Part shown: positions 12,139-32,400 of the stretch, piece by piece | Position numbering within the stretch: the first letter of the stretch is position 1 | How the letters are laid out: each line of letters starts with the position of its first letter | Source of the DNA: Oscillospiraceae bacterium | GTDB taxonomy: Bacteria > Bacillota > Clostridia > Oscillospirales > CAG-272 | Length of the DNA stretch: 34,264 nt | Reading direction: 5' to 3' | NCBI GenBank assembly: GCA_015064415.1 | Contig: SVSG01000025.1 | Location: 1 to 34,264 of the forward strand | Program-made: the position numbers and the translations under genes | Notes under the pieces: generated by a model | What the model saw: the letters and a program-made list of their open reading frames with translations, nothing else | Databases searched by the model: none | What the model was told of the DNA's origin: nothing

Positions 12139-12145
12139 AGCCCAA

Positions 12146-12187
12146 GGCCTTGGAAACATCACGTTTCCAAGGCCGTTTTCCTTTTTT
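12146..12187. terminator. Terminator between pepT and the six-gene operon
   Basis: GGCCTTGGAAA (12146-12156) and TTTCCAAGGCC (12164-12174) form an 11-bp stem with a 7-nt loop, followed by GTTTTCCTTTTTT on the plus strand. It serves pepT and may also stop the converging operon ending at 12206. Confidence 0.85.
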
Positions 12188-12205: not shown

Positions 12206-12883
12206 CTACGTCGCATCGGGGGGCACGCAGAAATAGTGGCGTGAGATCCGTTTGATATCATCTGACAGATCCCACGTGACGTCCATTTTCAAGATCTTGC
12301 CGTCCACCCGCACCAGATTCCACGCATGGTAGCCCCCCTCGCCCGTGCCCGCGTCGCGCACGTAGCCACAGCAATAGGTACAATCCACGCCCACCTCGCG
12401 CAGTAAGAATTGCGCAGCTCTGGCGATCCCCTCGCACACGCCTATGCGCTCAAAAAGCGGGCCGATCATGTTGTGATCCTCTCGCAGATACACGTCCTTT
12501 GCCACCGTTTTTTTGTTGTATCTTGTGCGCAGCGCCAAGAAATCGTGCACCTTGCGAATGGCGTCAGCGGGCTTGGAGCCGGCAAAGGGGATCGCCATTT
12601 GCCGCGCCTTTTGCAAATACTGCTTGGCGCGCTCTCTGGCTATCCAATAATGCAGATACACGACCGTCCGCGCCCCGTGAAATTCGGCCTTATACAAAAT
12701 GTAGCCCCAATCGACGTGGAAAAAGTGCGGGTTGTCATTTTTCACGGCCTCGACGATCACCTGCAGATTTCCCACCTGCCCGAATTCCACGCGGGGGTAA
12801 AATCTGCAAATGGCGGCGGCAAGCTTCCGATACACCGCCTGCCCCGCCCGCGACAGATTGCGATAATGATAATATCTGAGCAT
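12206..12883 (-). CDS. Transglutaminase-like cysteine protease-fold protein
   Basis: 225 aa from the ATG at 12883, with AAGGGGAG upstream. The ATG starts 1 nt after the stop of the phosphatase gene, so this is the last gene of the operon and is translationally coupled. The transglutaminase-core triad is visible: Cys150 in RIGVCEGIARAAQFLLRE, His186 in GGYHAWNLVRVDGK and Asp201 in KMDVTWDLS. The N-terminal half (residues 1-140) is helical and has no recognised domain. There is no signal peptide, so it acts inside the cell. The fold catalyses protein cleavage, cross-linking or deamidation. In this context it may be an effector that modifies a partner protein under control of the kinase/phosphatase pair (inference). 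Confidence 0.82.
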   Translation of the reverse strand: MLRYYHYRNLSRAGQAVYRKLAAAICRFYPRVEFGQVGNLQVIVEAVKNDNPHFFHVDWGYILYKAEFHGARTVVYLHYWIARERAKQYLQKARQMAIPFAGSKPADAIRKVHDFLALRTRYNKKTVAKDVYLREDHNMIGPLFERIGVCEGIARAAQFLLREVGVDCTYCCGYVRDAGTGEGGYHAWNLVRVDGKILKMDVTWDLSDDIKRISRHYFCVPPDAT

Positions 12884-12884
12884 C

Positions 12885-13862
12885 TCAGCTCCCCTTGCGC
12901 GCGCCCTTTTTCCCTCTCGGCGGGCGCAGCGCGTGCTTGGTGTGCAAGCAGAAGGATACGTCATCCTGCGTCACGCCGAATTGTGCGCGCTCCTCGATCC
13001 ACTGCTGTGCGCTTTTGGCGAAGGTATGCCCCCCGCCCTTGCGCAAAAGCTCCGCGATCTCCAGCATCTTGTCCGCAAACTCGGCGTCACCGAGGAACGC
13101 GTTGCGCAGGCCGTCGGTGGCCAGCAGAACAAACTCGGGCTGGAAGCGGTTGTCCTTGATCCTGCGTCCTGCGGTGATCGGCACAAGGACGGCGTGAAAA
13201 TTTCGTATCAGCGAAGAAAATCTGCCGCAAAGCGAGTCGGGATTGGTGTCGAACTGATCGGCGGAAGGCAACAACCACTCCACGCGCTTTCCGTTGACGG
13301 CAATGACGTCCCCGTCACCGATGCCAAGGGCGAAAACGAACTTGTCGCACACCACCGCGACGTTGAGGGTGGTGCCGTAAAACAGCGTGATCTTATAAAT
13401 ATCGTTCTCGCAGTCAAAGCGGTATTGGGCCAATTTCTGATACTCCCTTGCCGGCATCACCTCGTCTCTGACCTCGTAGATGACGCGCGAATAGCGCAAA
13501 AGCTCCTTGTATTTTTCGCAAAAGGCGGTGTCCTCGCCATGATGGATCTTATAATCGTCCAGAACGGCCTCAGTCCACGCGCACACGATGCGCTGAAAGA
13601 TCTGCTCTCTTGTATCGTTGAGCTCCTTGGCAAAATCCTGTATCGTTTCACAGCGCTCCCGCACCTCGCGGATGACCTTGTCCCCCACCCATACCGCAAG
13701 CTCTGCCCCACGGCGCGCGTATTTGCATTTCGCGTCTCCGTGTCCGTCGCTGCACGCCAGCAGGCAGAAATCGGCATATTCCTTGCAAAGGACGGCATCC
13801 TCTGAGGGCTTTCCCCTCATCTTTTTGTAATAACCCGTTGTGGTCTTGCTGAGTAACGGCAT
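12885..13862 (-). CDS. PP2C-type (PPM) protein phosphatase
   Basis: A 325-aa protein with the standard PPM metal-binding motifs: ACSDGHGDA (Asp39, DGHG), FYGTTLNVAVV, ALGIGDGDVIAV, LLATDGLRNAFL and FGVTQDDVSFCL. All metal aspartates appear intact, so an active Mn/Mg phosphoserine/threonine phosphatase is expected. A long helical insert (about residues 55-150) between the first motif and the GTT motif makes it larger than minimal PP2C proteins. The C-terminus is basic (PPRGKKGARKGS). GGAG precedes its ATG. It most likely reverses phosphorylation by the kinase encoded two genes upstream, as in TerY-P triads. It follows a perfect palindrome at 13889-13912. Confidence 0.88.
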   Translation of the reverse strand: MPLLSKTTTGYYKKMRGKPSEDAVLCKEYADFCLLACSDGHGDAKCKYARRGAELAVWVGDKVIREVRERCETIQDFAKELNDTREQIFQRIVCAWTEAVLDDYKIHHGEDTAFCEKYKELLRYSRVIYEVRDEVMPAREYQKLAQYRFDCENDIYKITLFYGTTLNVAVVCDKFVFALGIGDGDVIAVNGKRVEWLLPSADQFDTNPDSLCGRFSSLIRNFHAVLVPITAGRRIKDNRFQPEFVLLATDGLRNAFLGDAEFADKMLEIAELLRKGGGHTFAKSAQQWIEERAQFGVTQDDVSFCLHTKHALRPPRGKKGARKGS

Positions 13863-13888
13863 GTTGTTTCTCCTTTGCTATCATTTTT

Positions 13889-13912
13889 GGCAAGGCCCCG
13901 CGGGGCCTTGCC
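13889..13912. repeat. 24-nt perfect palindrome between VWA and phosphatase genes
   Basis: GGCAAGGCCCCG (13889-13900) is followed directly by its exact reverse complement (13901-13912). On the operon strand it is followed by AAAAATGATAG, not a T-run, so it is unlikely to be a full terminator. On the opposite strand the same element is followed by AATCGG. It may be an mRNA-stability or processing hairpin, or a protein-binding site. Confidence 0.7.
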
Positions 13913-13921
13913 AATCGGTGA

Positions 13922-15127
13922 TCAGTTCAGATCCTCGAACCAGTTGTCCAGCGTGGTGTCGAACTCCGTTTCAAAGATTGCGCCGTGCGGGCACTCGGCA
14001 AGACAAGCGCCACAGCCGCTGCAACGGTCGGGATCGATCATCACGCGGTTCCACTGCATCTCGATGGCCTTCTCGGGGCACTTGTCCATGCAAGCGCCAC
14101 ACTGCCCGTTCCGGCACTTATCGGTCTCGATCTGGTACATACGGCGCTCGCCGCCTGCCTTTTGGCCGGCATCGTCCTGCGCGTTTGCCGCGTCGTCCGC
14201 ATCAGCGGGTACGGGGGCGGGATCGGGCACGGGGTCTGCCTCGGGGAGTGCGTCAACGTCGTCGCGCTGCTCCTCCTCGGCTGCATCCAGCTGCTCCTGC
14301 TCGGCCTCGTCGCCGTCAAGATTCCCGTTTTCGATGTCTCTGGTGGTCTGGTTCTTGATGCTGGCGCGAGACACGAAGTTCAGCACGTCGGCGATCGACT
14401 CGCCATCCTCCACGCGATAGAAGCGGGAAAGCTCGCCCTCGGCACTGCCGCCGTCACAGAACTCGCGAAGCACGTCGGCATCGGCATCATCCCCCACCGC
14501 GATGGAATAGAACTCGTGATGAATGCCGCGCTCATACAAGGTACGCTTGCATTCGTCGATCTCCTTCTTGGTGCGCTCGAAGGGCACGAAGCAACCGTTT
14601 TCGTCGGTCGGCTGGCCGTCGCTCATCAAGATCACGATGACCGCCTTGTTGTAGCTCTTGCCCTTGCGCGCGGGGCGCTCGTCGATCAGATACTTGTGGT
14701 CGACGAAGGTAAGAAGGGTCTTGAGGGAGGCGCTGAGAACGGTGCATCCGCCCGCCTCAAAATTGACGACCTCCTCCTTTTTGTGGGCGATCGGCTCAAA
14801 GCGGGGATTTTGCGCCTGACCGTAGGAATCCAGATGAATGACCTGATAATAGATCGAGTGAAGGGGGTCCTTTTCATCCAGATCGATCAAGCTTTGCTTG
14901 GAACGCTTCCACCCCTCGTTGAGCTGCTCGATCTTGGGAACGGTGGATACCTCACCGCCCTCACCGAGCACGCTGGTGCGCTCGTTCATGCTGCCCGACA
15001 GGTCAAGAATGTAGACCACGTAGATCGGGGCACAGTTTTCGTTCACAACGCGCTCACCCACGCCGAATTCGCTGGTCTCGGCAAGCGACTTGCCTCTGCC
15101 GGAAAAACGCTGATTAGAGATGCTCAT
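13922..15127 (-). CDS. VWA (TerY-like) protein fused to a 2x[4Fe-4S] ferredoxin domain
   Basis: A 401-aa protein with three parts. (1) A von Willebrand A domain, residues about 33-265, with an intact MIDAS metal site: ILDLSGSMNE (D42, S44, S46), GGCTVLSA (T129) and VILMSDGQPTDE (D170). This fits TerY-type VWA proteins. (2) An acidic, Pro/Ala-rich linker, about 280-330. (3) A C-terminal dicluster ferredoxin: Cys338/343/346/350 followed by Pro (C-x4-C-x2-C-x3-C) and Cys369/372/375/379 followed by Pro (the classical C-x2-C-x2-C-x3-CP). There is no signal peptide. The ATG overlaps the stop of the kinase gene (ATGA). It probably acts as a metal-dependent protein-binding scaffold between kinase and phosphatase, with the Fe-S part giving redox or iron sensing. 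That last step is inference. Confidence 0.88.
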   Translation of the reverse strand: MSISNQRFSGRGKSLAETSEFGVGERVVNENCAPIYVVYILDLSGSMNERTSVLGEGGEVSTVPKIEQLNEGWKRSKQSLIDLDEKDPLHSIYYQVIHLDSYGQAQNPRFEPIAHKKEEVVNFEAGGCTVLSASLKTLLTFVDHKYLIDERPARKGKSYNKAVIVILMSDGQPTDENGCFVPFERTKKEIDECKRTLYERGIHHEFYSIAVGDDADADVLREFCDGGSAEGELSRFYRVEDGESIADVLNFVSRASIKNQTTRDIENGNLDGDEAEQEQLDAAEEEQRDDVDALPEADPVPDPAPVPADADDAANAQDDAGQKAGGERRMYQIETDKCRNGQCGACMDKCPEKAIEMQWNRVMIDPDRCSGCGACLAECPHGAIFETEFDTTLDNWFEDLN

Positions 15128-16452
15128 GATACTCTACCTCCTAAGAATTTTAATATGTGTTTGCCGACCGTAATGGTGGCATCCATGAAAATGGGAAGAA
15201 CGTCATTGCGGAAAAGCTCCTTTTCCAGCCCGTTTTGCAGCTTGACGGTAACGCTCTGATGGCCGATGCAAAGAAGGCCGTATTTGTTTTCGTGCTCCAG
15301 GGGCACCACGCGAAACAAAGGCGCGCTGTTCTGATCTCCGAACACCTCGCCCGTCCAGACCTCGGTGCCGTTGAACAAGCGCACGCCCGGCGCTTGCGAT
15401 TTCTCGCAAAAGATCTTGATGGGGGGCGACAGCTCCGCGCCGCAAACGTGACAGTTCTTGGCGGAGGTGCCGAAAAACTGCTCCTCGCCGCATTGCTTGC
15501 AAATGAAATGGTCCTCGTAAAGCTGCGTCAGAATATCCAGCCATTCCCGCGGCTCTACGCGCTTGCTGCCGTCAAACAATCCGTCCACGAAGGTGCGGTG
15601 CATGGCGTCCGCGAAGTACTTGGGGTACACCTTCATGCGCTCGATCACACGCTTGTCGGTTTCGGGGGGACGGTTCGAGGCATCCTTGCGATGGTAGACG
15701 TAAATGGGATTGATGGCAAAGGTGTAGGTGTCGATGTCGTTGTTGCAGGGCTCGTCGTACTTTTTGCCCCGCAGCGGATGGCCGGAGATCAGCGTCATCC
15801 AGATCATCACCGCCAGCGCGTACGCATCGCTGTACTTGCTGGGCAGGATCTCGCCGCGCATAACACGCGGCTCCATGAAGCCGACCGTACCTCTCACGAT
15901 CGGCTTGGAGCCACGGCCGACGGCCGTGTCGGTGTCCAGAATTTTGACCGTGAGGTCATTCATGTTCACCATGATGTTGTCGAATTTGACGTCCATCAGG
16001 GCAATGTCTGCCTCATACAGGATCATAATGGCCTCCACGATGTTGTAAAGGATCTCCAACTTCTGATGGAAGGGCAGCTCCATACGCACCTGATTGCCGT
16101 TGCCGTCATTCTTGCGGATGCCGTTGAAAAGCACGCTTGCCGAGGTGAAATGATCCCCGCCAACGTACTCCATAACGTAGCCGATCCGCTCCCCCACCTT
16201 CACCGTGAAAAGCGGGTGCACGAAGGCGGCGCTGGCCCTGCCGCGCTTTTGCAGATTGCCGATCTGGCGGCGGTGCATCAAGGGGTCGCCCGTGTGATAC
16301 AGCTTCATAGCGTAGGTCTCGCGACCCGCATGCACCTTATAGATGTCGCCCTGACCGCTGCCCTCGTGGATCAGGGTGTCCACGATGAACTCGCGTCTGC
16401 CGTCGTCGGAAAACACACGGCTGCCGGGCTTCAAACGAAACTTGTTGGTCAT
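15124..16452 (-). CDS. Ser/Thr-type protein kinase with zinc ribbon and possible FHA-like tail
   Basis: 442 aa from the ATG at 16452, selected because AAAGGAG precedes it and it lies 1 nt after the helicase stop. Kinase domain, about 20-310: glycine loop EGSGQGD (30-36), Lys50 (AMKLYH), catalytic loop LMDVKFDNIMV (D154, K156, N159; HRD reduced to LMD), DFG replaced by DTD (173-175), GFMEP as the APE equivalent, and SDAYALAVMIWMTLISGHP. A zinc ribbon follows: C318-x2-C321 and C334-x2-C337. The last 100 residues (GVRLFNGTEVWTG to KHILKFLGG) are beta-rich and might be an FHA-like fold, but the SxxH pattern is weak. It is probably active and cytoplasmic, phosphorylating operon partners. Confidence 0.87.
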   Translation of the reverse strand: MTNKFRLKPGSRVFSDDGRREFIVDTLIHEGSGQGDIYKVHAGRETYAMKLYHTGDPLMHRRQIGNLQKRGRASAAFVHPLFTVKVGERIGYVMEYVGGDHFTSASVLFNGIRKNDGNGNQVRMELPFHQKLEILYNIVEAIMILYEADIALMDVKFDNIMVNMNDLTVKILDTDTAVGRGSKPIVRGTVGFMEPRVMRGEILPSKYSDAYALAVMIWMTLISGHPLRGKKYDEPCNNDIDTYTFAINPIYVYHRKDASNRPPETDKRVIERMKVYPKYFADAMHRTFVDGLFDGSKRVEPREWLDILTQLYEDHFICKQCGEEQFFGTSAKNCHVCGAELSPPIKIFCEKSQAPGVRLFNGTEVWTGEVFGDQNSAPLFRVVPLEHENKYGLLCIGHQSVTVKLQNGLEKELFRNDVLPIFMDATITVGKHILKFLGGRVS

Positions 16453-16453
16453 A

Positions 16454-19400
16454 TCAAGCACTCTCCTTTGTCGCACGCATTTTTTCTGCCTCATCCAGCA
16501 GCATTCGGATCAGGCGCTGATTGTCCTCCTGCTCGCACCCCGCGCTGACGCGAAGCAGCTGCGCGAGAAGATAACAGCAGCGCTTTTCCCCAAGGTTTTT
16601 GTAAAGATAGTAGGCCTTTCGGGTAAGGGCCTCCAGCTTCTCCCCCTCCTCACGCAGTGCGACCCTGTGCACGTTCTGCGCCAGCTTGACAAGAAGCGCC
16701 TGCGTGTTTTGCTTATAGCAACCGTCGATGTAATCCTGCGAAGCCGTTTGGATATCCTCATCGCAAAGGGTGCGGCACACGCTCTCCACACCAAGCCCCA
16801 CCAGATCCGCAAAGCCGAGCTTCTGGATCTTGGGTTGTGCGACCTCCTCCTCGGCAAAGGAAAGCTCGGAGAGCTGTCTGCGCAGCGTGATCTCCTCCAG
16901 CGTGATCGGCATCGAGGGGCGCGAGCTGATCAGATAGTTCTCCTCCGCCACGCTGCCAAGGGGGCGATCGTTTTCGATCATGTGGGGCAGCTGCTTGCGG
17001 AACGCCTCCTTCTTCTCAAGCAGATAGATAAGGGAAAGGGGGAGCACGCGCCATCCCGCGCGCTCCAGCAGATTGATCTTGGTAAACAGCGTGTTGAGAC
17101 TGATACGGCGGTCGGGCAGCATAAAACCGACGGCGTACTTGCTCTCATCCCTCCCGTCGATCACGGCAATGTCCACCATCATCGTGCCGGAGCCGATCTT
17201 ACTGCGCACCTCACTGCCGCTCAGCGCCTCGGAAACCACCTTCGCCGCGTGCAGGTTCGGCTTATCCTGCGTTTCGTCCGTTTCGGCGGAGCCGGGCATG
17301 TAACCGGTCGCGGCATGCTCCAGATAGGTGTGCAGGCGCTTCAGACTGCGGTCGGTATTGCGGATCTCGTCATGACCGAACGCGTGAAAGACCACGTATT
17401 TTTCGCGGGAGCGGCTGAACATAACGTTCAGGCGGTTGTTGCCGCTTTGCTCGTTCTGCTCGCCCGCGTTGAAAAAGCCGGAAATGTTCTTTTGCAGGAC
17501 ACCCTTGACGTTGCGACGATCGTGCTCGATGGCGATGAGAATGACGTCCGCTTCTCTGCCCTGCGCATTTTCGATGGATCTGACCCATATGCCCTCCTCC
17601 TCGATGAGGTAGGGGGCCAGCACGTCGTTGCCCTCCATTGCGTCCAGCACCTTGTCATGGAACGCATCGTTGAGCGTGACCACGCCGATGCTTTTTTCGG
17701 GGGTCTCGGTCTTGATCTTCGCCGCGTATTCCGCGACCTCCAAGGCCACGGTGTCCGCGACCTCCTTGACGTGGCTTTCAAGGTACGGATACTCAGTCAC
17801 CATGCGGTCCTTGCCCTTGCGCAAGCGGGCACTGGCACGCGCACTTGCGGGATCAAAGGGTACGTGAACGCGGTGAAGCTTGGGGCCCAGATGCTCGGGC
17901 AGATGCTCCCAGTCGGTGTATACGGCAGGGATCATATTGAGCATATCGTTGTAGCAAAAATGGTTTGAGGTCTCGAACAGCTGCGGGACCTTGGAACGGT
18001 AATGGTACAAAAGGCGCGTACCGGGAACACCCTTGCCCTGCACGAGATGGAGCACCGACTTGTCGGTACGGGACATATCGAACTCGCCCTCCTCATCGTA
18101 GGCGTCCTCCCCTCTCGTGTGGAAAAAGCTGGTGATATCCAGCTGCATATTGTCGCCGAAAACAACCAGATTCTTGTCGCCGCACAAAAAGGGCAACACG
18201 TTGACGATCGGCACCTGAGAGGCCTCGTCAATGAGGAGCGTATCAAAGGAATTCATCTCATCCGTCATGTAATTGGCGGCCACCGTGGGCGTTGTGACGA
18301 TGATGGGGCAAAGCTTCATCACCGCACCCGCGTACTTCTTGAAAAAGTCCTTCACGCTCATTTTCGAGGTCTTGATCCGCTCAAGCAAGGGGATCAGCTC
18401 CTTGTCCTCGCGGACGGCCTCGGTGATCCGTTCGCTCAGCTGCTGGCGCATGAACGCCACGCAAAGCGAGCGGTACTTGGCATAGCACTCGGTCAGCTTG
18501 GCGTACTTGGCACGCAAAAAGACGTTGCCGAATTTGCCAAGCTCGTACTCCGCCACAAGCTCGTTTGCCAGAATGCGGGCCAGATTGGCGCGCGTGATCG
18601 CGGCAAAACGGTCATGCGGCAGACGGTTCTTGTTGATAAAGGAAACGATATCCACACCGCAACGGCGGACCTGCGCCACCAGATCCTGCAGCAGCTCGTC
18701 CACCTCCTCGTCTCCCGCGCTTCCGCTTTCCAGAAAGTCGGAAAACTCCTTGTCAGAGACCGCGTTGTTGATGTTTTCCTGCAGCTCGTCCAGCTTGCGG
18801 CACACAAGGCGAAAGCCGTCGCGCTCCACGTAAAGGTCGGAGACGTCCTCGCAGGCGTCCTCGGCGATCGCCTCACCGATCAGCTCGTAAAGGTTCATAT
18901 CGATGCTGGGGATCACGCTGTATACGGCGCGCTGATACCCGTCCAGCAGCTCCTCGATCTCGGCGGTCTCGCTGAGCAGGTCTCTGGCGCGGATGGGATC
19001 CACGTACACCCGCGCGGTGTTGCGGATCTTGTCCAGCTGCCCGATGATCTGGGACACTGTCATGCGGTTGTCAAGGATCAGGCAGAACTTGTCAAGCCCC
19101 ACGGACGCCGCATATTCGTTGATAAACACCTCGTTGGCCGCCGCCTTTTCCGACATCACGCAAAGCTTTTTGCCGTGGATGGCCAGATTGGCCGCAATGT
19201 TGACGGCGGTCTGGGATTTTCCCGTGCCTGCGGCGGCAGACACGTTCTGGCTGTGACCGTTCAGCACCTCGGCGATCACCTCGCGCTGGCTGTCATCGGC
19301 AAACAGCGGATAGATCGCATGGGGCGTGATCGGCTTTTTCGGGACCTCGTCGTATTCGATCTCCCCGCTGAAAAGCCGCATCAGGGGGGATCTTGCCAGC

Positions 19401-20242
19401 TGATCGACGTTCTTTTCGATCAACTGACAAATGCTTTCGTTGGTAGAGTCCAGCACGCAGATGTTGATGCTGTTGATATTCACCTCAACGTGCGGCATGT
19501 ACTTGGCGTTATCCTCGATCACGCGCAGCGCGCTGAGCATCTGCTTGCCGAAGGGCACCTCGTCGGGCACGTTCAGAAACAGCGGGAACCCGCGGCGCTT
19601 GAGCTCTCTTGCAAGCAGCCCATTGACCTTGACCGTGTCCGCCGTAATGAGAAAGCGCGGGCGCTCACGCGAGAGGGCATCCTCGGTAATGGGACAAAGC
19701 AGCAGGGGGGACACCGCCTTCTCGGCGGGCTTTGTATCCGTACCCTCCTCCTTGATCCACGTGACGGTGCCAACGGTCAGATACAAAATGTCCTTCGCCT
19801 TATCGCGGCGCGCTTCTCTCGATCTGCGGCTGATCTCCTTCCACGTGCGCGGAACGGTGGAGTCCTTGTTGTTACTGCGCGCAAAATAGCTGTATTGTGC
19901 GAGAGGGCCGTACTTCTGCACGTACTCGTACTGCGCGGACGTGAGCAGTACGCCCTCCTCCAGCTTGAAATGGACCTCCTTGCCCTCCCACACGGCGTTC
20001 TCACTGGAGGTGAAAACGTCTCCGGCGGTCACGGCGTCGCCCTCATAGCGCTCCGACGGGAGCTCGTCCTGCGTCAGCTCGATCTCATGCAGCTTTCTTT
20101 TGTCATCACAGCCGCACAGCGTTTCGGCGGTTTTGCCGCAAAGACACAAAGAGGTCTTGCTCATATGAATGAATTCAGTCGCACGCTGCTGCTGTCTGGC
20201 GGTTTGCGTGTAATACATAATGGCTTGTCTTGCGTCCATCAT
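16454..20242 (-). CDS. SF1 (UPF1/DNA2-like) helicase with degenerate nuclease-like C-terminus
   Basis: A 1262-aa protein. Residues 33-45 hold a CxC-x7-CxC cysteine cluster. RecA-like motifs: Walker A AAAGTGKSQ (336-344), motif Ia SEKAAANEV (364-372), Walker B LLIDEASQVP (669-678), motif III FGDNMQLD (695-702), YHYRS (746-750), motif V NAQGREAD (892-899) and motif VI NRLNVMFSRSREK (936-948). A 320-residue helical insert separates Ia and II, as in DUF4011-type helicases. Residues 1009-1075 read like the Vsr/MTES_1575 endonuclease fold (VDIAVIDGRDESKYAVGF, then ERAGWRVLPLSLIYLLE), but the usual E-C-D/G metal strand is GFMLPD. Nuclease activity is therefore probably lost or changed. The last 180 residues are helical. 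It starts with GGAGG before tandem ATGs. Expected to unwind or translocate on nucleic acid with ATP. Confidence 0.88.
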   Translation of the reverse strand: MMDARQAIMYYTQTARQQQRATEFIHMSKTSLCLCGKTAETLCGCDDKRKLHEIELTQDELPSERYEGDAVTAGDVFTSSENAVWEGKEVHFKLEEGVLLTSAQYEYVQKYGPLAQYSYFARSNNKDSTVPRTWKEISRRSREARRDKAKDILYLTVGTVTWIKEEGTDTKPAEKAVSPLLLCPITEDALSRERPRFLITADTVKVNGLLARELKRRGFPLFLNVPDEVPFGKQMLSALRVIEDNAKYMPHVEVNINSINICVLDSTNESICQLIEKNVDQLARSPLMRLFSGEIEYDEVPKKPITPHAIYPLFADDSQREVIAEVLNGHSQNVSAAAGTGKSQTAVNIAANLAIHGKKLCVMSEKAAANEVFINEYAASVGLDKFCLILDNRMTVSQIIGQLDKIRNTARVYVDPIRARDLLSETAEIEELLDGYQRAVYSVIPSIDMNLYELIGEAIAEDACEDVSDLYVERDGFRLVCRKLDELQENINNAVSDKEFSDFLESGSAGDEEVDELLQDLVAQVRRCGVDIVSFINKNRLPHDRFAAITRANLARILANELVAEYELGKFGNVFLRAKYAKLTECYAKYRSLCVAFMRQQLSERITEAVREDKELIPLLERIKTSKMSVKDFFKKYAGAVMKLCPIIVTTPTVAANYMTDEMNSFDTLLIDEASQVPIVNVLPFLCGDKNLVVFGDNMQLDITSFFHTRGEDAYDEEGEFDMSRTDKSVLHLVQGKGVPGTRLLYHYRSKVPQLFETSNHFCYNDMLNMIPAVYTDWEHLPEHLGPKLHRVHVPFDPASARASARLRKGKDRMVTEYPYLESHVKEVADTVALEVAEYAAKIKTETPEKSIGVVTLNDAFHDKVLDAMEGNDVLAPYLIEEEGIWVRSIENAQGREADVILIAIEHDRRNVKGVLQKNISGFFNAGEQNEQSGNNRLNVMFSRSREKYVVFHAFGHDEIRNTDRSLKRLHTYLEHAATGYMPGSAETDETQDKPNLHAAKVVSEALSGSEVRSKIGSGTMMVDIAVIDGRDESKYAVGFMLPDRRISLNTLFTKINLLERAGWRVLPLSLIYLLEKKEAFRKQLPHMIENDRPLGSVAEENYLISSRPSMPITLEEITLRRQLSELSFAEEEVAQPKIQKLGFADLVGLGVESVCRTLCDEDIQTASQDYIDGCYKQNTQALLVKLAQNVHRVALREEGEKLEALTRKAYYLYKNLGEKRCCYLLAQLLRVSAGCEQEDNQRLIRMLLDEAEKMRATKESA

Positions 20243-20274
20243 CCATCCTCCTTTTCTTCACGTCGATCCCACAC

Positions 20275-20922
20275 TCAGAACACGTCCTCCGAGAGGGAAT
20301 GCATGCTCTCCTCCTGCGCGTCCCGTGCGGGCTTTTCCGCGCTCTTTTCGGGCTCGTCCCTCTCCTCGCCGTCACACCAATCCATGTCCTCTACCTCCTC
20401 AAGATCGATCTCGTCCAGCAGACTTTCCAATTCCTCATGCCGTTTTTCCATCGTGCCCATCAGCAGCGGATCCTTCTCATCAAAATAACACCCGTGCGCA
20501 ATGCGGTCCAGGCGACGCTCTATTTTGTCGGATGCGGCGATCGCCATGTCCATCATATATTCCAGATCCTGCGCCGAAACGGGCTGCTGGATGCTTCCCG
20601 CCTCCACGTGCACCTTGACCTCGCCGCTTTCCTTATGAATATCCACGCGCGCGGGCCCGAACGGGGGCGTGTTCGCGTGCACGTACGCACACAGCATGGC
20701 GTAATAGGGCTTTTCGCAAATACATTGCGGATAAAGGTCCAGCGCAACGCGTCCTGTCTTTTCCTTCACGGTGTATATGGCAAAATAGCTTCTGTCGCAC
20801 GTGTGAAAATGGCAAAATCCCCCCGGGACCTCTCCGCGGAGCATGCCGTAATACGCTCGGTGCTCGCGGTCCAGATAACTCTGGATCGCATCAAGCGATT
20901 GCAGTACAAAAATTTCCGTCAT
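20275..20922 (-). CDS. First gene of the operon: small acidic protein, possibly YbjN-like
   Basis: A 215-aa protein with a strong AGGAGG ribosome binding site, 32 nt upstream of the helicase gene. Residues 1-150 have an alpha/beta layout: MTEIFVLQSLDAIQSYLDRE, then strand-rich FAIYTVKEKTGRVALDLYP and ARVDIHKESGEVKVHVEAGS, then a helix ending LDRIAHGCYF. This order recalls YbjN-like / type III chaperone-like folds, which act as adaptors (from memory, unverified). Residues 150-215 are a strongly acidic, probably disordered tail (LLDEIDLEEVEDMDW, many Glu). There is no signal peptide. Leading the operon, it could be an adaptor for the helicase or a substrate of the kinase (the tail has several Ser). 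Function unknown. Confidence 0.75.
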   Translation of the reverse strand: MTEIFVLQSLDAIQSYLDREHRAYYGMLRGEVPGGFCHFHTCDRSYFAIYTVKEKTGRVALDLYPQCICEKPYYAMLCAYVHANTPPFGPARVDIHKESGEVKVHVEAGSIQQPVSAQDLEYMMDMAIAASDKIERRLDRIAHGCYFDEKDPLLMGTMEKRHEELESLLDEIDLEEVEDMDWCDGEERDEPEKSAEKPARDAQEESMHSLSEDVF

Positions 20923-20945: not shown

Positions 20946-20974
20946 ATTTTCAGTGTAGCACAAAATTCTGTCAA
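20946..20974 (-). promoter_or_regulatory. Likely promoter of the six-gene operon
   Basis: On the minus strand TTGACA (20974-20969), 17-nt spacer, GAAAAT (20951-20946). The -35 is perfect; the -10 matches consensus at 4 of 6 positions. It lies 24 nt before the first gene's ATG, leaving a very short leader. Weak basal activity or need for an activator is possible. Confidence 0.5.
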
Positions 20975-23251: not shown

Positions 23252-23406
23252 TACCCACAGTCGGTGGTCTACACGGGTCGACATTCCGCCGCTTTACACG
23301 TTTCGGAAAATCGGGGCCTTCCATTCCCGCAACCGAAGACAGGCAGATGTCCGCGGCCCGCATTCTTATTTTATTTTGATTGTTTTATTTTGGGATCTTA
23401 CAAAGC
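23252..23406 (+). promoter_or_regulatory. Long, GC-rich structured 5' leader
   Basis: In contrast to its AT-rich surroundings, 23255-23362 is GC-rich and can fold as nested stems: GACAT (23280-23284) with ATGTC (23347-23351), TTCGG (23302-23306) with CCGAA (23333-23337), and CGGG (23312-23315) with CCCG (23326-23329). No T-run terminator follows. It fits no riboswitch consensus I know. Confidence 0.4.
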
Positions 23407-23423
23407 AAAAGGAGGAATTTTTT

Positions 23424-26400
23424 ATGAAACTCGCGCTCCCAAAAAACAAGTGGCTTCTCGCCTTTATCATCGCAGCTGTCGTCGCTGTTGCAGCGATCGT
23501 GGTTGCCATTGTGATCGGCGTGACGTCCGCCACCCCCGACGCACCCCCGTACGTTGAGGGCAATGAAGTCGGCGTATATTATTACGACGCCTTGGACCAG
23601 GAAGTGTTGCTGACGCTCAGCGGCGGCAATCTCTTCACCATTTCAGGCCCCCAGATCAACAAAACGGGTACCTACACCGTTGACGGGACCACCATCACCT
23701 TGGATTTCACCAAGGATGAGGACGGCACCGCAACGGCAAGCATCAACGGCGACACCGTGACGCTTGTTTACGACAACGCGACGATGTCCTTCCTCAAGAA
23801 GGTCAATTACACCGTCAGCTTCAACGTAAATGGCGGCAGCGAGATCACCGCCGTGACCGTGATCAACGGCAAAACGCTGGAAAAGCCCGCTGACCCCACC
23901 AAGGAAGATGCCATCTTCCTCGGCTGGTATGCAGATGAGGCGCTCACCACCCCCTACGCCTTCAACACCGCAACGGTGAAGGCCGACACCACCCTGTACG
24001 CCAAGTGGGTGGCAAAGACCGTGGGCGGCTCCGAGTACACCGTTGACTTCGACCTCGGCTACGAGGGCGGCGTGGCACCCGATGCCATCACCACCGTCGG
24101 CGGCAAGGTCTACGGTCTGACCGTACCGCAGCGCGAGGGCTACACCTTCGGCGGCTGGTGGATCAGCATGTACGAGGACGGCGCAAAGCTTTCCTTTGCC
24201 TGCACCGCTGACACCGTGCTCAAGGCAGACACCACGCTCTTTGCCGTGTGGTATGACAACGCCTCCACCAAGCTGAACGCCCCCGCCGTCAGCGTTGGCG
24301 CGAACGCCATCTCCTGGAACGCAGTGGAGGGCGCCGCCACCTACAAGCTGACCGTGATCGATCCCAACGGCGACACCGTGATCGACAATGAAACGGTCGG
24401 TACCACCACCAAGGCATTTGATTTTGCCGCAGCTGCAGCCGGTGAGTACAAGATCACCGTGGTCGCCGTTGCCAGCAACGAGGCAAACAATTCCGAGCCC
24501 GCAAACAGATACTTTGCCAACAAGGCGCTTGACCGCGTTTACAACTTCCGCGTGGAGAACGGCATTCTGGTCTTCGGCGCTGTCGAAAACGCACAGAAGT
24601 ACCTGATCACCATCGACTGCGGCAATGAAAACCACGTACATACCGCATTGGATAACGGTGCTTCCACTACCTATTACATGGCCAACTGCTCCATGCAGAA
24701 GGGCGGCATCCTGATCACCGTCACGGCCGTTGCAGACGGCTACGCCTCCACCACCTCCGAGGTCTTTGTTTACGAAAAGAACCTTGCCAAGGTTGAAGAG
24801 ATCGTATACGACGCCGAAAAGGATCAGTTTGTGTGGGATGCCATCCCCGGCACCGCAAACTACCGCGTGACCATCGCCGTTGACGGCAAGTCGTACGGCT
24901 TTGACAACGGCACCGCCACCTCCTTCTCTCTGGCCGGCTTTACCGGTGACATCGTCGTGACCGTCACCCCCGTGGCAGAGGGCTATAACTCCCCCAACCC
25001 CCAGACCGCATCCTGCAAGAAGACTGCTCCCGCCGCTCCCACGGGGCTTACCGCCGCGGGCACGGTGATCTCCTGGAATGCCGTAGAAGGCGCCACCTCC
25101 TATGAACTCAGCATCGGCACCCAGACCGTAACCGTCACCACCAATCAATTGGATCTTGCCGGCTCCACCCTGATCCTGACGCAGGGCGAGACCTACGCCG
25201 TCAAGGTGAAGGCCGTCAATGCAAGCGGTGAAAGCTCCTCTTACTGTGCAACCGTGTATATGGGCTACTTCGCCATGAATAAGGCCCCCGTCTACGCGAA
25301 GAACACCGTGACCTGGGCTCCCGTTCTCGGTGTTTCCCGGTATCAGGTGCGCGTCAACGGCGGCGAGATCGTGAACGTGACCAACGCCAACTCCCTCAAG
25401 GTTGCCCTCACCAAGGAGGGTGAGAACCTGATCGAGGTCAGATACGTCAGCGGCGACACCGCCTCCGACTGGGCATCCGTTACCGTGACCGCCTATGCGG
25501 TGGAATACGACACCCGCTCGATCGCATTCGGCACCTTCCTTGTGGAATATCTTGCCATAGGCGACGAGCTGACGCTGCCCAACGCCGGCTTCTCTCTGGA
25601 GGGCTACATCTTCTCCGGCTGGTACAACGCACCCAAGGGTGCTGCGGGCAACGGCAAGCTGTACCTCCCCGGCACGACCTTCACGGGCAACGCCTACACC
25701 GTTGTGTACGCCGAGTGGACCCCCAGAGAATACGCCCTCACCCTGAAGACCGAGGGCTTCAATATCACCAACATTGAAAACAACGCCATTGAGTATGCGA
25801 CCTACACCAAGCACTTCCAGCTGACGGTTCCCCACGTGGACGATGCCGGCATGTACTTCTTCGCCGGCTGGTACACAGGTCCCTCCGGCACGGGCATCAA
25901 GATCACCGATGAAAAGGGTGTATCCGTTGCCCCCTACCCCTTCACCAGAAACGTTGATCTGTATCCTTATTACAGCACCAACGCCCTGTCCTTCGAGCTT
26001 CAGGAGGACGGCACCTACGCCGTCAAGAAGGGCGACGCTATCGCAACCGTCACCAACCTTGTCATTCCCGTGACCTATAACGAGATCCCCGTTACCAAGA
26101 TCCTGGAAAGCGGCTTCAGCGGCTGCTCCACTCTGGTTACCATCAGCATTCCCGATACCATCACGCTTGTCGGTACCGGCGCACTCAACTCCTGCTCCAA
26201 GCTTGAGTATATCGACGTTTACGTTGCCAAGCCCGAGGAGGAAGGCCGGTACGAGACCTTCTATTCCTCCGACAACGGCGTGCTCTTGCGCCGCGACGTG
26301 GGCGACGTGGTCTACCTTGAGGTCGTTCCCAAGGCAATGACCGGCAGCTACACCATCTCCGGCAAGGTAGATAAGATCCTTACCAAGGCGTTCTCCGGCA

Positions 26401-29400
26401 CCAAGCTGACCAGTATCACCGTTCCTGCGAACGTGTCTGTCCTGCCCGCTTACGCCTTCTACAACTGCTCCTCCCTTGAGACGCTTGTGTTCGCCCCCGG
26501 CAGAACCACTCCTCTTGAGATGGAGAAGTACGCGATCTACGGCTGCAGCAACCTCAAATCCATCACCTTCCCCGCAAACCTGACCGCCGATTTCGCCTCT
26601 TTGAAGGCCACGTTGGACCTGTTCACTAACCTTCAGGCGATCAACGTGGAGGAAGGCGGCAGCGCCTTCGCCTCTCTCGGCGGTATGCTGACCAGTGCAG
26701 ATAAGCACACCATCCTTTACTGCCCGAGAGCGTATGCCGGCGCGCTGACCATCCCCAACGGTGTCACGGCCATTGGCGACAACGCCTTCTACTACTGCGA
26801 CGACATCACCTCCGTCACCATCCCCGTTTGGGTCACCTCCATCGGCTATCAGGCATTCTACTCCTGCGATTCGATCACCGAGATCGTATTTAAGGGCGCA
26901 AGAAGCGCTGACCTTCTGATCGGCGAGGCCTCGTTCAGCTACCTGAACGGTCTGGAAAAGATCACCTTCGAGGGCAACGGCACCGAAGAGCTTGATACCG
27001 GTAAGGTCACCATTGGCGAGAGAGCCTTCACCGTGGTTCAGTCCTATGCAAAATTGCACACGGTTGAGATCGGTGCGGGCGTCAACATCGCCGAGATCGG
27101 CGTGGATGCCTTTATCCGCCAGGCAAAGCTGAAGAGCTTTAACATCGCTGACGGTGCACACATCGGTATCATCGGTGAGGGTGCATTTGAACAATGTCTG
27201 TCTCTTGTCTCCTTCACAGTTCCCGCAACCACGCAAAAGATCAGCGAATATGCATTCCTTGGTTGCGAGTCACTTGCCCTGCTGACCTTCAGATCCGAGG
27301 GGGCAACCTCGCTTGAGATTGCAGACTTCGCCTTCCAGAACTGCACGGCTCTGGCAACCATCACGCTTCCCGACCACCTGGAGGAGTTCAGATCCACCGC
27401 ATTTGACGGCTGCAACGCCCTCAAGTCCATTCTGGTCAACGAAACCAACGAAAACTATGTCAACGACGCAAACGGTGTACTTTACAAAAAGACGACCGAT
27501 GCCGAGGACAACGTAGTACTGACCGAGCTTCTCTTCTTCCCCAAGGGTCTGGTAAAAGATTCGAACGGTGTTGTCAACACCCTTCCCGAGACCCTGACTG
27601 TGATCGGCGGCTCTGCCTTCGCAGACAACAACTTCCTTACAAGCATCGCCATCCCCGCGGGTGTTACCAAGATCGACACCGCCGCATTCCAGAACTGTGA
27701 GAACCTCGTTACCGTCACCTTCCTTGGCGCACAAAATACAGAGGCAGAGATCGCACTTGTGATCGGCACCAACGCCTTCACAAACTGCGTTGCCTTGACC
27801 AAGGATTTCGCCCTTCCCGCCTACACCACCACGATCGGTGCCAACGCCTTTGAGGGCTGCACCTTCACCGAATTCGTGATCCCCGAGGACGTTACGGTCA
27901 TCGAATCCGCCGCATTCTATAAGTGTGCCGCGCTGGAAAAGGTCACCTTCAACTGCACGGGCTCGCTTGCGCTGCCCTATGAGAAGTCCAGCCGTTACGG
28001 CGGTGCGTTCTCCGGCTGTTCCTCGCTGAAGTCCATCGAGCTGCCCGCAGGCACCACCATCATCGGTAACTACACCTTCGCTGACTGTACCTCGCTCACC
28101 AGCGTAAGCATCGGCACCGTCACCACCTCGGTCGGTGCAAACGGCGAAACGGTCTATACCACCAACGCAGTTGTCGAAAGCTTCGGCACCGGCGCCTTCT
28201 ACTTCTGCCCGAACCTGACCACCGTCATCATTCCCAAGAGTGTGAAGATCATCGGCAACCTTACGTTCAAGAACGACACGAAGGCACCCGGTAAGCTTCA
28301 GAACGTGATCTTTGAGCAATTCGGCACCGAGCCCTTGGAGATCGGCACCGACACCTTCAGCAACAACCCCGAGCTGACCTCTATCACCTTCCCTGCAAGA
28401 ACCAAAACGCTTGCAAACCTTTCCTTCAATGCCAGTGGCCCCGCAGGCGTGTCCTTCAAGTACGTGAACGGTAAGTTTGTGAACGGCTCGACCTCGACGT
28501 TCAAAATGACCTCTACCTTTGTCACCGTAAACGGTATGTTTGCCAATAACACGGCGCTTGCCAAGATCAACATCGGCAACGACACCGTGGAGGGTGTAAC
28601 CCCCTACTTCTCCTCGATCGACGGTGTGCTTTACACTGCCGACCAGACCACGCTGATCTGGTGTCCCTTCGCCAACACCGGCGTGCAGGGTGCGGACGGC
28701 GAGCCCACGTATGAGATCGTGATCCCCACGTCCGTTACTACGGTTCTGGGTTACGCCTTCAAGGAGCAAAAAACGCTGAAAACCGTTACCTTTGCAGAAT
28801 TTGAAAAGGGTAGCGCCAACTACGGCAAGCAGCTCCTGACGCTCGCACCTGTCACCGGCAAAAACGGCGAGACCTATGCTGTGTTCGGTGGTGAGGTCAC
28901 CTCGATCACCACGATCAATCTGCCCTCTCACCTGAATACGATCAACGGCTCTGTATTCGCCGTAGAGAAGACCTTTGACGTTGTAGTCACGATCAACTTC
29001 AACCCGGATTCCAAGGTTGAGCTTGGCAAATACGCCTTCCGCCTTGCCAAGGTCACGGCACTGACGATCCCGTATGTCAGCAAGATGGACACGTACGCTT
29101 TCACCGATTGCCAGCAAATGGAAACGCTTTCCGTAACCTTTGCAAGCACCATCAAAAAGGTCTATGACTACACCTTCCAGAACTGCTACGCACTGACCTC
29201 CTTCGTGATCCCCGATCACTTTACCGAGATCGGCACGTATGCCTTCCAGAACAACGAGGCGCTTCGTGAGATCATCATTCCCAACAGCGTCACCAAGATC
29301 GGCAACAGCGCCTTCACCGGCTCCGGTCTTACCGCTGTCACCATTTCGCACAAGGTAACCACCTTTGGTACCAGCGTATTCACCAACTGCGATTCCCTGG

Positions 29401-32400
29401 AGACTGTAACGTTTGCACTCAATGCCTCCGGTACCAGCTCCATCAAAAAGATCCCTAACTCTACCTTTGAAAAATGTACGGCTCTTACCACCATCAACCT
29501 CACGGATCTGGCGCTGACCGATATCGGTAGCAAGGCATTCCATACTTGTAGCGCACTTCCCGAGATCGACTTCACAAAGCTCACCACTTTGAAGACCATC
29601 GGTACCACCGCATTCAGCAACACGACCTTTGAGCACGTGGATCTTTCCAAAACTCAGCTCACCAAGGTGGACACCTCCTTCAACAACATCGCAACCCTCA
29701 AGACCTTTGTGTTCCCCGCAAAAACCGCTTCTGTGGTTGCCGGGGCCTTCACAAATAACGACGCTCTGGAAACGGTGACCCTGTCCCCGAGCTTCACGGG
29801 TGCTATGTTCTGTCCTTCCGCAACCACCTTCATCTTCACGAGCGCTCAGCCCGACATCATCATCCCTGAGGATAACAAGAACCTTGTTCTGGGCGTGGAC
29901 GGCGTGATCTACGACCCCAGCTATCAGACCGTTTATCTGGCTAAGTTTAATGCTGACCTGAGCAATTACACCATTCCTGGTTCGGTCATGAAGATCTCCT
30001 CCTACGCCTTCGCATACAACCAGACTCTCGATAGCTTTACCATCCCCCAGAATATTGCCGAGATCAGCGCGTATGCGTTCGCTTACTCCTCTCTCAAATC
30101 CGTCACGATCCCCGCATCCGTGACCACCATCGGCAACTACGCCTTCTATGACACGGATCTTGCAACCGTTGTGTTCGAAAACGAGCACGAGAGCAAGCTG
30201 AAATCGCTTGGTGCCTTCGCCTTTGGCGCAACCAAGCTGGTCGAGGTCTCCTTGCCCGATAACCTTTCCGATATGAAGAACTCGATCTTCATCGACTGCA
30301 CCGAGCTGAAGAAGGTCACCCTCAGCGCCGGCCTCAAGGAGCTTCAGGGCTTCGTATTCGGTCGCTGCTACGCCCTGGAGGAGATCATCTTCCAGGAGGG
30401 TCTTGAAACCATGCAGTACCTCTTCTGCAGCAGTGACGGTCTGGAGGAATCCAACCAAGTGGTTTCCGTTACCCTGCCCTCTACCCTCAAGACGATGAAG
30501 ACCAACGCCTTCAACGGCTTCAGAAACCTGAAGACCGTGACCTTTGCAGAAGGCAGCCAGCTGGAGACCATTGATTACAAGGGCTTCTACAACTGCGAAT
30601 CGCTGGAGTCCATCAACCTGCCCGCAACCCTCAAGACACTGGGCTACTCCGTATTCTTCAACTGTCGTTCGCTCAAGTCCATCGATCTTGCCGAGACCGA
30701 CATCACCGTGATCCAGAAGCACACCTTCTTCAACACGGAAAACCTTGCAACCCTGACCCTTCCCAAGAATCTGGAAGAGATCCAGCTCTTCGCGTTCTAC
30801 AACACCGGTGTGGTGGATCTTGTCATCCCCGCATCCGTGACCACGTTCGGCAACTCCGCATTCGAGAACGCCAAGTCGTTGAAGACCCTGACCTTCTCGC
30901 CCATCAGCTTGATCGCCGAGCTTGGCAGCACCGACGAAGGCGAGCTTTCCAACGTCTTCAAGGGCACCACAAGTCTGGAGACCGTGGCGCTTCCCAACTT
31001 CCTGGATGCCATCGGCAACCACGCGTTTGAAAACAGCTCTGTCCACACCGTTACGCTGGCGGATCCCGAAGGATTTGCCGAGCTGCAAATTGTCGGCGAC
31101 TACGCCTTTGCAAACTGCCCGAACCTCAAGGGCTTTGACTACCTGCAAAACGTAACCGCCATCGGCGAGTGTGCATTCCTCAATGACGTCAACTTGGAAC
31201 TCGCTACGATCTATGACGGTCTGGAGACCCTTGGCGGTCTTGCCTTTGGCTTCTGCACGAAGCTGAATGTTGGCTACATCCCCGCAACGGTCACACAGCT
31301 TGGCGGCAACCCCTTCGCAGGTCTTTCCGCTGACAAGATCACAGTTGATGCAAACAGCGAGCTCTTTGTGACCGAAATCGATGCCAACGGCGCGCTTACC
31401 ATCACCAACCTTTCCAAGACTGCCATCTACGGCGTGTTCGGTGCCACCGGCGCGTATACGCTGGGTGAAGACGTCACCGTTCTTGGCGCAGGTGCCTTTG
31501 CAGGCAACGCCATCACCGAGATCACCGTTCCCGCACGCGTGGGTACGATCGGAACCGGTATGTTTATGAACTGTAAGGACCTCACCACCGTCACCATTGA
31601 GGACGGCATCACCGAGATCGGTGCTTACGCCTTCTTTGGTTCGGGTCTCACCACCGTGGAGATCCCCGCTACCGTCAAGACCATCGGCGATTATGCCTTC
31701 GCATACTGCGCCGCCATCGACAACGTCACGGTGCCTGCCACCACAACAACTCTGGGCAACTACGCGTTTGCGTACTGCACGGCACTTTCCAACTTTGCAT
31801 TTGAGGAGAATACTACATCCACCTACCAGGAGATGGGTACCCACTTCTTCTATAACTGCCCCAACATCACCGAGGTACACCTGCCTACCAAGCTGTCCCT
31901 TATGACGGAAGAAGTGAAGCACTACGGCTACACATCCACCGGTTATAACAAGGATACCATTCCCGGTTACACCTTTGCCGGCACCGGCATTGTCGATGCT
32001 GTGATTCCCAAGGAGATCAAGTACTACTTCACACCCGGTATATTTGCGAACTGTGTGAATCTGGAAAAGATCATCATGGAGGAAGAAAAGAGCTTCAGCA
32101 AGCCGAACAGCGCTCCCTTCGCTACGTTCGGTAACTGGCTGGAGGGCTGCGACAAGTTCCAGGGTATGTACATCGACACCTTCATTGCATCAACGACCAC
32201 CTCGGACACCACGCTTGCTTACACCGTTGAGCTTGCCCACTACTCCGGCTTTGGTGTGCTGCACGTCGCTACCATCACCGCGGAGAACACGGCGCCTCTT
32301 GGTACCTACGCACGCTTCGAGTACGCAGATGAGAACCTTTCCGTCTACTTCGACGGCAACACCTACGAGGAGATCATCGAGTATATGCAGGGCGTCGCAA

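Follow-up and report, generated by a model that had tools for sequence, protein, structure and literature searches.

The six-gene locus and its TerY-P core

The window analysed here is the whole 34-kb contig SVSG01000025.1 (34,264 nt) of an Oscillospiraceae bacterium, whose assembled genome spans 2.25 Mb and is 81% complete. It contains a run of six open reading frames (ORFs) on the minus strand at positions 12206–20922, all of them intact, which encode in order a small adaptor-like protein, a superfamily 1 (SF1) helicase, a Ser/Thr kinase, a VWA-ferredoxin protein, a PP2C phosphatase and a transglutaminase-like enzyme. As noted in the preliminary description of this sequence, the six genes nearly touch one another: counted from the adaptor, and using the starts implied there, the gaps are 32, 1, −4, 59 and 1 nt, while the longest mechanically called ORFs start further upstream for the kinase (16494) and the transglutaminase (12964). 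Judged from its genes, the operon appears to be an uncommon form of an already known family of bacterial systems for stress response or defence.

The core of the operon comprises the kinase, VWA and PP2C genes. The kinase (442 amino acids [aa]; 15124–16452, minus strand; Pkinase, E 3.2e-13) carries a C-terminal zinc ribbon and a further domain. Residues K50, D154, D173, C318, C321, C334 and C337 are invariant across six aligned kinases, that of the window and five others; the zinc ribbon is read from the four conserved cysteines, the Pfam DZR match reaching E 0.046. The adjoining protein (401 aa; 13922–15127, minus strand) comprises a TerY-like VWA domain, a low-complexity linker and a ferredoxin with two Fer4 stretches. 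Its VWA match in Pfam (E 7.5e-4, 20.2 bits) lies under the Pfam cut-off of 23.8. Residues D42, S44, S46, T129 and D170, which form the metal site (PMC11090510, available part), are invariant with the TerY-type VWAs of Rhodoferax and Klebsiella plasmids. The ferredoxin cysteines follow the patterns C-x4-C-x2-C-x3-CP and C-x2-C-x2-C-x3-CP and are predicted to hold two clusters. The PP2C phosphatase (325 aa; 12885–13862, minus strand; PP2C_2, E 9e-16) has DGHG, GDG, DG and DD motifs that are invariant in an alignment of five. With VWA metal-site residues, PP2C metal-binding aspartates and a kinase zinc ribbon encoded by three adjacent genes on one strand, this set is, by its motifs, a TerY-P triad, in agreement with the earlier assignment.

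The helicase (1262 aa; 16454–20242, minus strand) belongs to the DUF4011/MTES_1575 (Hhe, ProA) family. Its NCBIfam matches, best across the helicase half, are to ProA (5.7e-85) and Hhe (8.8e-56), and neither reaches its curated cut-off (286 versus 1500 bits for ProA, 189 versus 2000 for Hhe); Pfam identifies AAA_11, AAA_12 and a partial DUF4011, and PADLOC matches PDC-S37 and Hhe. By sequence it is thus closest to anti-phage families, which supports the possible link to defence suggested previously for the locus. We aligned it with its orthologue at the locus described below (L110), with Hhe, with three plasmid DUF3320 proteins and with four further relatives. The SF1 motifs are intact (GTGKS, DEASQ, GDNMQL, HYRS, the QG motif and NRLNV...SRSR), whereas the nuclease-like C-terminal domain, at about residues 985–1085, looks decayed in both the window and L110. 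The position of the ECD motif, which five of the eight other relatives carry, is occupied by FMLPD in the window and FLLPD in L110, and both proteins lack the arginine-rich motif as well as the DW tail that all eight relatives have. MTES_1575 has no Pfam match in either helicase and is present in all three plasmid relatives scanned. The ECD, arginine-rich and DW residues are those that we take to be catalytic in this domain, and we infer that nuclease activity has been lost.

A core operon shared with a second species

Kinase loci were collected by a single genome-collection scan with a three-kinase alignment and two kinase patterns. The 49 loci obtained are not independent, since 19 of their kinases fall into one mostly Lachnospiraceae clade. 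The best of them, L110, is a 9.2-kb contig of an uncultured Clostridia bacterium, on which helicase, kinase, VWA-ferredoxin and PP2C follow one another on one strand in the same order as in the window. Amino acid identity is 55.2% for the helicase, 62.4% for the kinase, 47.2% for the VWA-ferredoxin and 55.1% for the PP2C, and the L110 gaps are 3, −4 and 144 nt, so that the 4-nt overlap of kinase and VWA is common to both loci. Third codon positions differ by 0.55–0.67 and second positions by 0.22–0.32; because this ratio is 2 to 2.6, the core genes look to be under purifying selection. The VWA metal-site residues and all eight ferredoxin cysteines are kept in L110, which strengthens the earlier proposal of an iron-sulfur (Fe-S) domain. 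In a tree of 56 kinases, those of the window and L110 form a pair with 100/100 support on a long branch apart from the 54 others. The Fe-S motifs, sought by cysteine pattern in 119 VWA ORFs from 174 loci (a set that includes L110 and duplicates), occur only in the VWA of L110, which is in the set twice, once the copies from the window itself are excluded.

With four of its six genes found together again in a second species, the cluster is no mere accident of one assembly, and the helicase is the constant partner of the triad. The suggestion that all six genes form one system is not supported; what is supported is that these four are conserved together. The transglutaminase is absent beside the L110 operon, and the sole match in that genome is a 996-aa ORF elsewhere; the adaptor was not found in the 412 nt that lie 5′ of the operon, up to the contig end. 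Downstream of the L110 operon, the next gene is an ORF of unrelated sequence whose start resembles that of a lipoprotein.

The operon is rare. The VWA protein has a strong match only in its own genome among 394 genomes of the order, with two weak ones besides (1.5e-4 and 1.7e-4), and a two-row helicase profile at 1e-35 likewise finds only its own genome among 398 genomes of the phylum. Among 58 relatives of L110, a VWA-ferredoxin profile matched the L110 genome alone. In the class, 31 of 291 genomes, its own included, have weaker relatives of the helicase when the single protein is the query (1e-10); thirteen of these loci, encoding helicases of 606–1930 aa, were considered as orthologues and rejected, as phmmer at 1e-3 found no kinase, VWA, PP2C or transglutaminase in any of them. 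Six of the thirteen encode proteins of 1270–1290 aa and come from small genomes of one family. The gene convergent with the operon, pepT, occurs in 3 of 21 genomes of the genus. In the nearest other genome that carries it, pepT is 79% identical at the DNA level, the two sequences cease to resemble each other at position 12139 of the window, and none of the operon genes was found in the 35 kb around pepT. This patchy distribution fits a mobile system. The G+C content of the operon (0.576) resembles that of four other loci of its genome (0.56–0.59), so composition gives no sign of recent foreign origin. No relatives turned up in viral contigs, whether these were searched with single proteins or with the two-row alignments of helicase and VWA-ferredoxin. 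The alignment of kinases matched six viral contigs bearing kinase relatives, in which neither helicase nor transglutaminase had a match, and the VWA had none in the phage collection. A second match to the TerY-type VWA profile is present in the same genome (L059, contig C7:47816-48397, minus strand; E 3.4e-20), with no kinase or PP2C match in the surrounding 16.9 kb.

The first gene of the operon encodes a protein of 215 aa with an acidic C-terminal tail (20275–20922, minus strand), here called the adaptor. Searches of Pfam, PADLOC, NCBIfam and PHROGs gave no match to it; tblastn against the collected loci returned only itself and one chance-level match (E 0.035), and the predicted structural model is unusable (mean predicted local distance difference test [pLDDT] score, 39.9). 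A promoter-like site lies just before it (20946–20974, minus strand), identified by consensus match only, with 9 such sites in the region where shuffling predicts 4.7. Purine-rich sequences resembling ribosome-binding sites precede all six starts, that of the transglutaminase being the weakest. A terminator-like 12-bp hairpin (12146–12174) separates the operon end from pepT and is among the two strongest of 16 found, versus 13.2 expected; another strong hairpin lies at the opposite end of the operon (21185–21142). A single transcription unit for the six genes is plausible, the promoter and hairpin matches being no proof of function.

Elsewhere in the window, an 859-aa protein with RHS repeats and a PT-HINT pretoxin domain is encoded towards the left, where the contig is lower in GC (766–3345, minus strand). 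To the other side of the operon, a plus-strand frame of 3054 aa (23376–32540) lies opposite minus-strand frames of 1197 and 1550 aa. AddAB was considered for the large minus-strand ORFs at 23643–31922 and rejected, since no Pfam family matched and the 3054-aa ORF, itself unscanned, lies opposite.

Transglutaminases beside TerY-P triads

The last gene of the operon encodes a transglutaminase-like thiol enzyme (225 aa; 12206–12883, minus strand; Transglut_core, E 3.5e-11) with a C150-H186-D201 triad that is invariant in ten of ten aligned transglutaminases. Its predicted model (pLDDT 86.7) best matches the solved structure of S. pyogenes TglA (9crn), with a TM-score of 0.76 by query length. Of the 49 kinase loci (809 kb), 9 contain homologs, in every case on the same strand as the triad; the distance to a kinase or PP2C ORF is at most 90 nt for seven of them and 1.6 and 3.6 kb for the other two. 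Thirty control loci (547 kb), some of them VWA-centered, contain a single transglutaminase, which is itself near a TerY-like VWA (L050). The order kinase-VWA-PP2C-transglutaminase is shared by L117, L143 and L150. Mapped onto the kinase tree, presence of a transglutaminase requires seven changes, at least five of them forced by well-supported branches, and the pairing has therefore been gained or lost repeatedly.

The reciprocal comparison gives a different picture. The family is common, since 162 of the 291 genomes from the class contain a match at 1e-12, and no triad accompanies its best matches in the class in any of 40 loci (41 matches after that of the window itself, some loci being cut by contig ends). 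A quick tree of 51 transglutaminases places the nine linked copies together with six unlinked ones in one weakly supported group, a clustering of labels equaled in none of 500 shuffles; the window enzyme falls outside this group, on a long branch with weak support. Within the nine genomes that hold linked copies, its best match is the linked copy in eight and its second best in one, as judged by matching positions by hand to the 49 kinase loci, whereas in a wider set unlinked enzymes score as well as linked ones. The reciprocal loci and the tree rule out a family specific to TerY-P. Transglutaminases near TerY-P triads are thus a repeated but not an obligate association. No mention of the pairing was found in the literature searched, which did not extend to the founding TerY-P paper (Anantharaman 2012); in the available part of PMC3710099, the words TerY and transglutaminase occur in separate contexts.

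Several of the linked loci have further components. L148 (184–9158), from a metagenome-assembled genome of Fusicatenibacter, encodes a TIR-Sel1 protein upstream of a cluster that starts with transglutaminase-kinase and ends with PP2C. At L150 (511–11762), an FtsK/SpoIIIE-type ATPase and small ORFs precede the kinase-VWA-PP2C-transglutaminase run and a leucine-rich repeat protein follows it, a layout that recalls the FtsK-like ATPase extension of CoCoNuTs in the available part of PMC11090510. In a TerY-P cluster of a Planctomycetia genome (L115, 10210–11703), an HSP70-like protein lies between PP2C and transglutaminase.

The search for conserved neighborhoods that the preliminary description proposed has thus recovered four of the genes together and not the set of six. 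Because L110 keeps those four, transglutaminase linkage is not obligate and the window copy lies outside the linked group, the system, as judged from these comparisons, is the helicase plus the triad, with transglutaminase and adaptor accessory.

Relation to known systems and a proposed mechanism

The window resembles other TerY-P triads in its three adjacent genes, its motif residues and the C-terminal zinc-ribbon cysteines of its kinase. It differs in its ferredoxin-fused VWA, its long-branch kinase clade and the lack of any Ter-family match in the ORFs scanned. Fifteen loci, mostly from Lachnospiraceae (L118, L119, L121, L123–L126, L128, L129, L132, L136, L138, L140, L151 and L157), show another layout, VWA, kinase, a 390–398 aa ORF, a 237–241 aa ORF (VWA-like in some) and PP2C, with flanking ORFs of similar size. 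Mokosh defense systems pair a kinase with a helicase, and PADLOC gives weak matches to MkoA and MkoC here; in contrast to Mokosh, the window has separate genes as well as PP2C and VWA.

A related arrangement is that of CoCoNuT types II and III-A, which, according to the available part of PMC11090510, combine a TerY-P triad with the SF1 helicase CnuH, the HEPN protein CnuE and McrB- and McrC-like proteins. The window shares with them a triad adjoining an SF1 helicase. It differs in that no McrB, McrC/DUF2357 or HEPN match was found by Pfam among 18 window ORFs (a set without the 3054-aa ORF; genes past the 34-kb contig may exist). A Rhodoferax plasmid locus, with the order VWA, PP2C, kinase, helicase, unnamed, ATPase, DUF2357, fits the CoCoNuT type by its gene names, but its helicase is only weakly similar to that of the window (BLASTP, 2e-6). 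With Hhe/ProA (DUF4011, SF1 helicase and MTES_1575 nuclease), the window protein has in common the helicase core, a partial DUF4011 and a remnant of the nuclease domain; it is shorter (1262 versus 1893 aa for Hhe), has lost the nuclease residues, scores far below the cut-offs and is encoded with a triad. In an uncultured proteobacterium (L156, 2009–11392), a 2201-aa Hhe-like helicase ORF lies divergent near a PP2C-kinase pair; in our alignment this helicase has the acidic and arginine motif residues, and no VWA match was seen there. The giant proteins of MTES_1575 type, which in the available part of PMC3710099 unite HEPN, transglutaminase, SF1 helicase, Vsr nuclease and winged helix-turn-helix domains, likewise bring together a transglutaminase and an SF1 helicase with a Vsr-type domain, there in one protein. 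The window has separate genes, no HEPN match, a decayed nuclease domain and the added triad. Zinc-ribbon kinase, PP2C and vWA genes are also linked to GTPase systems (PMC7159879, available part).

The combination of helicase, triad and transglutaminase does not appear in the available parts of PMC12839542, PMC12458937 and PMC10250203, and no description of the full six-gene set was found in the literature searched, again with the founding paper outside it. The earlier statement that no named system with this full set is known therefore stands within that literature, while its novelty narrows: a TerY-P triad with an SF1 helicase is already known from CoCoNuTs, as far as the available part of that paper goes, and what is new is a DUF4011-type helicase in that place and the VWA-ferredoxin.

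We infer the signaling steps, the sensing role of the Fe-S clusters and the purpose of the system from the gene content, order and motifs seen at the locus. The operon most likely encodes an anti-phage or nucleic-acid-stress system gated by phosphorylation; that it is specifically a TerY-P phosphorylation switch wired to a defense-type SF1 helicase has, in our estimate, an even chance of being right. Since the kinase, PP2C and VWA motifs are kept, a partner would be reversibly phosphorylated, with kinase and PP2C determining whether the helicase, or else the VWA protein, carries phosphate. Metal-dependent protein binding would fall to the VWA domain. The ferredoxin is best read as the part that makes the switch responsive to redox state or to the integrity of its Fe-S clusters, although it may instead transfer electrons or have a structural role. 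The helicase would engage foreign or damaged nucleic acid and, because its own nuclease domain looks decayed, would serve for sensing or translocation and not for cutting. Where present, the transglutaminase-like enzyme could be an accessory effector that cleaves or modifies protein after the switch fires. The helicase that accompanies TerY-P in CoCoNuTs and the Hhe-like one beside the PP2C-kinase pair of L156 also support this model.

Several observations weigh against it. The core is found in only two species, one of them represented by a 9.2-kb contig, and L110 is seen without a clear effector, its nuclease domain being decayed too and a transglutaminase partner missing. Three of the eight aligned relatives also lack the ECD acidic residue, so this change alone is no proof of a dead nuclease. 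The PADLOC matches of the kinase may reflect no more than its resemblance to kinases in general, the ferredoxin may carry electrons or have a structural role instead of sensing, and Pfam, used here without PADLOC, identified no named defense system among the window proteins beside the operon. In addition, a tellurium-resistance cluster on a Klebsiella plasmid contains TerY-type VWA, PP2C and kinase genes, and TerY-P has been hypothesized to be a metal-sensing switch (PMC11090510, available part). Together with the ferredoxin cysteines intact in both species, these last two points would fit a redox or metal stress response, in which the ferredoxin-VWA would respond to oxygen, metal or reactive species while the helicase would serve nucleic-acid repair instead of defense. 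We regard this as possible but rather unlikely: no TerB, TerC or TerD match was found among the 18 scanned ORFs, within the limits set by the contig ends, and the family of the helicase, like the patchy distribution, speaks for defense more than for general stress.

That distribution, and the clustering of defense genes in islands, could also mean that a TerY-P module and a helicase merely share a mobile island and do no joint work. This seems quite improbable, because from helicase to VWA the genes keep one order, one strand and a spacing close to zero in two species at 47–62% identity, and because the kinases of these species pair apart from all others in the tree. A single obligate system of six genes with the transglutaminase as main effector would account for the tight spacing, for the excess of linked transglutaminases over controls (9 of 49 versus 1 of 30, seven within 90 nt) and for the gene order shared by L117, L143 and L150. 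We hold it improbable in view of the L110 operon, which has no transglutaminase neighbor, the triad-free reciprocal loci, the window enzyme, which does not group with linked ones (its placement being unsure), and the adaptor, for which tblastn found no homolog in the collected loci. A more elaborate form of the preferred phosphorylation switch would be Fe-S gated, the ferredoxin reading redox state or cluster damage during infection and, by way of kinase and PP2C, licensing a nuclease-dead DUF4011-type helicase that flags foreign nucleic acid and calls on exchangeable effectors such as the transglutaminase-like enzyme; we consider this version unlikely, though if true it would make Fe-S-gated TerY-P an immune switch of prokaryotes in which redox state is coupled to the phosphorylation of proteins.

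To our knowledge, neither the signal nor the target of TerY-P triads has been settled. A ferredoxin-bearing triad with one helicase of an anti-phage family would be a small, testable system for both the input of the triad and the substrate of its kinase, and the same operon can show whether helicase action without a nuclease suffices. The recurrence of transglutaminase-like enzymes near TerY-P triads suggests, in turn, a class of effectors for these switches.

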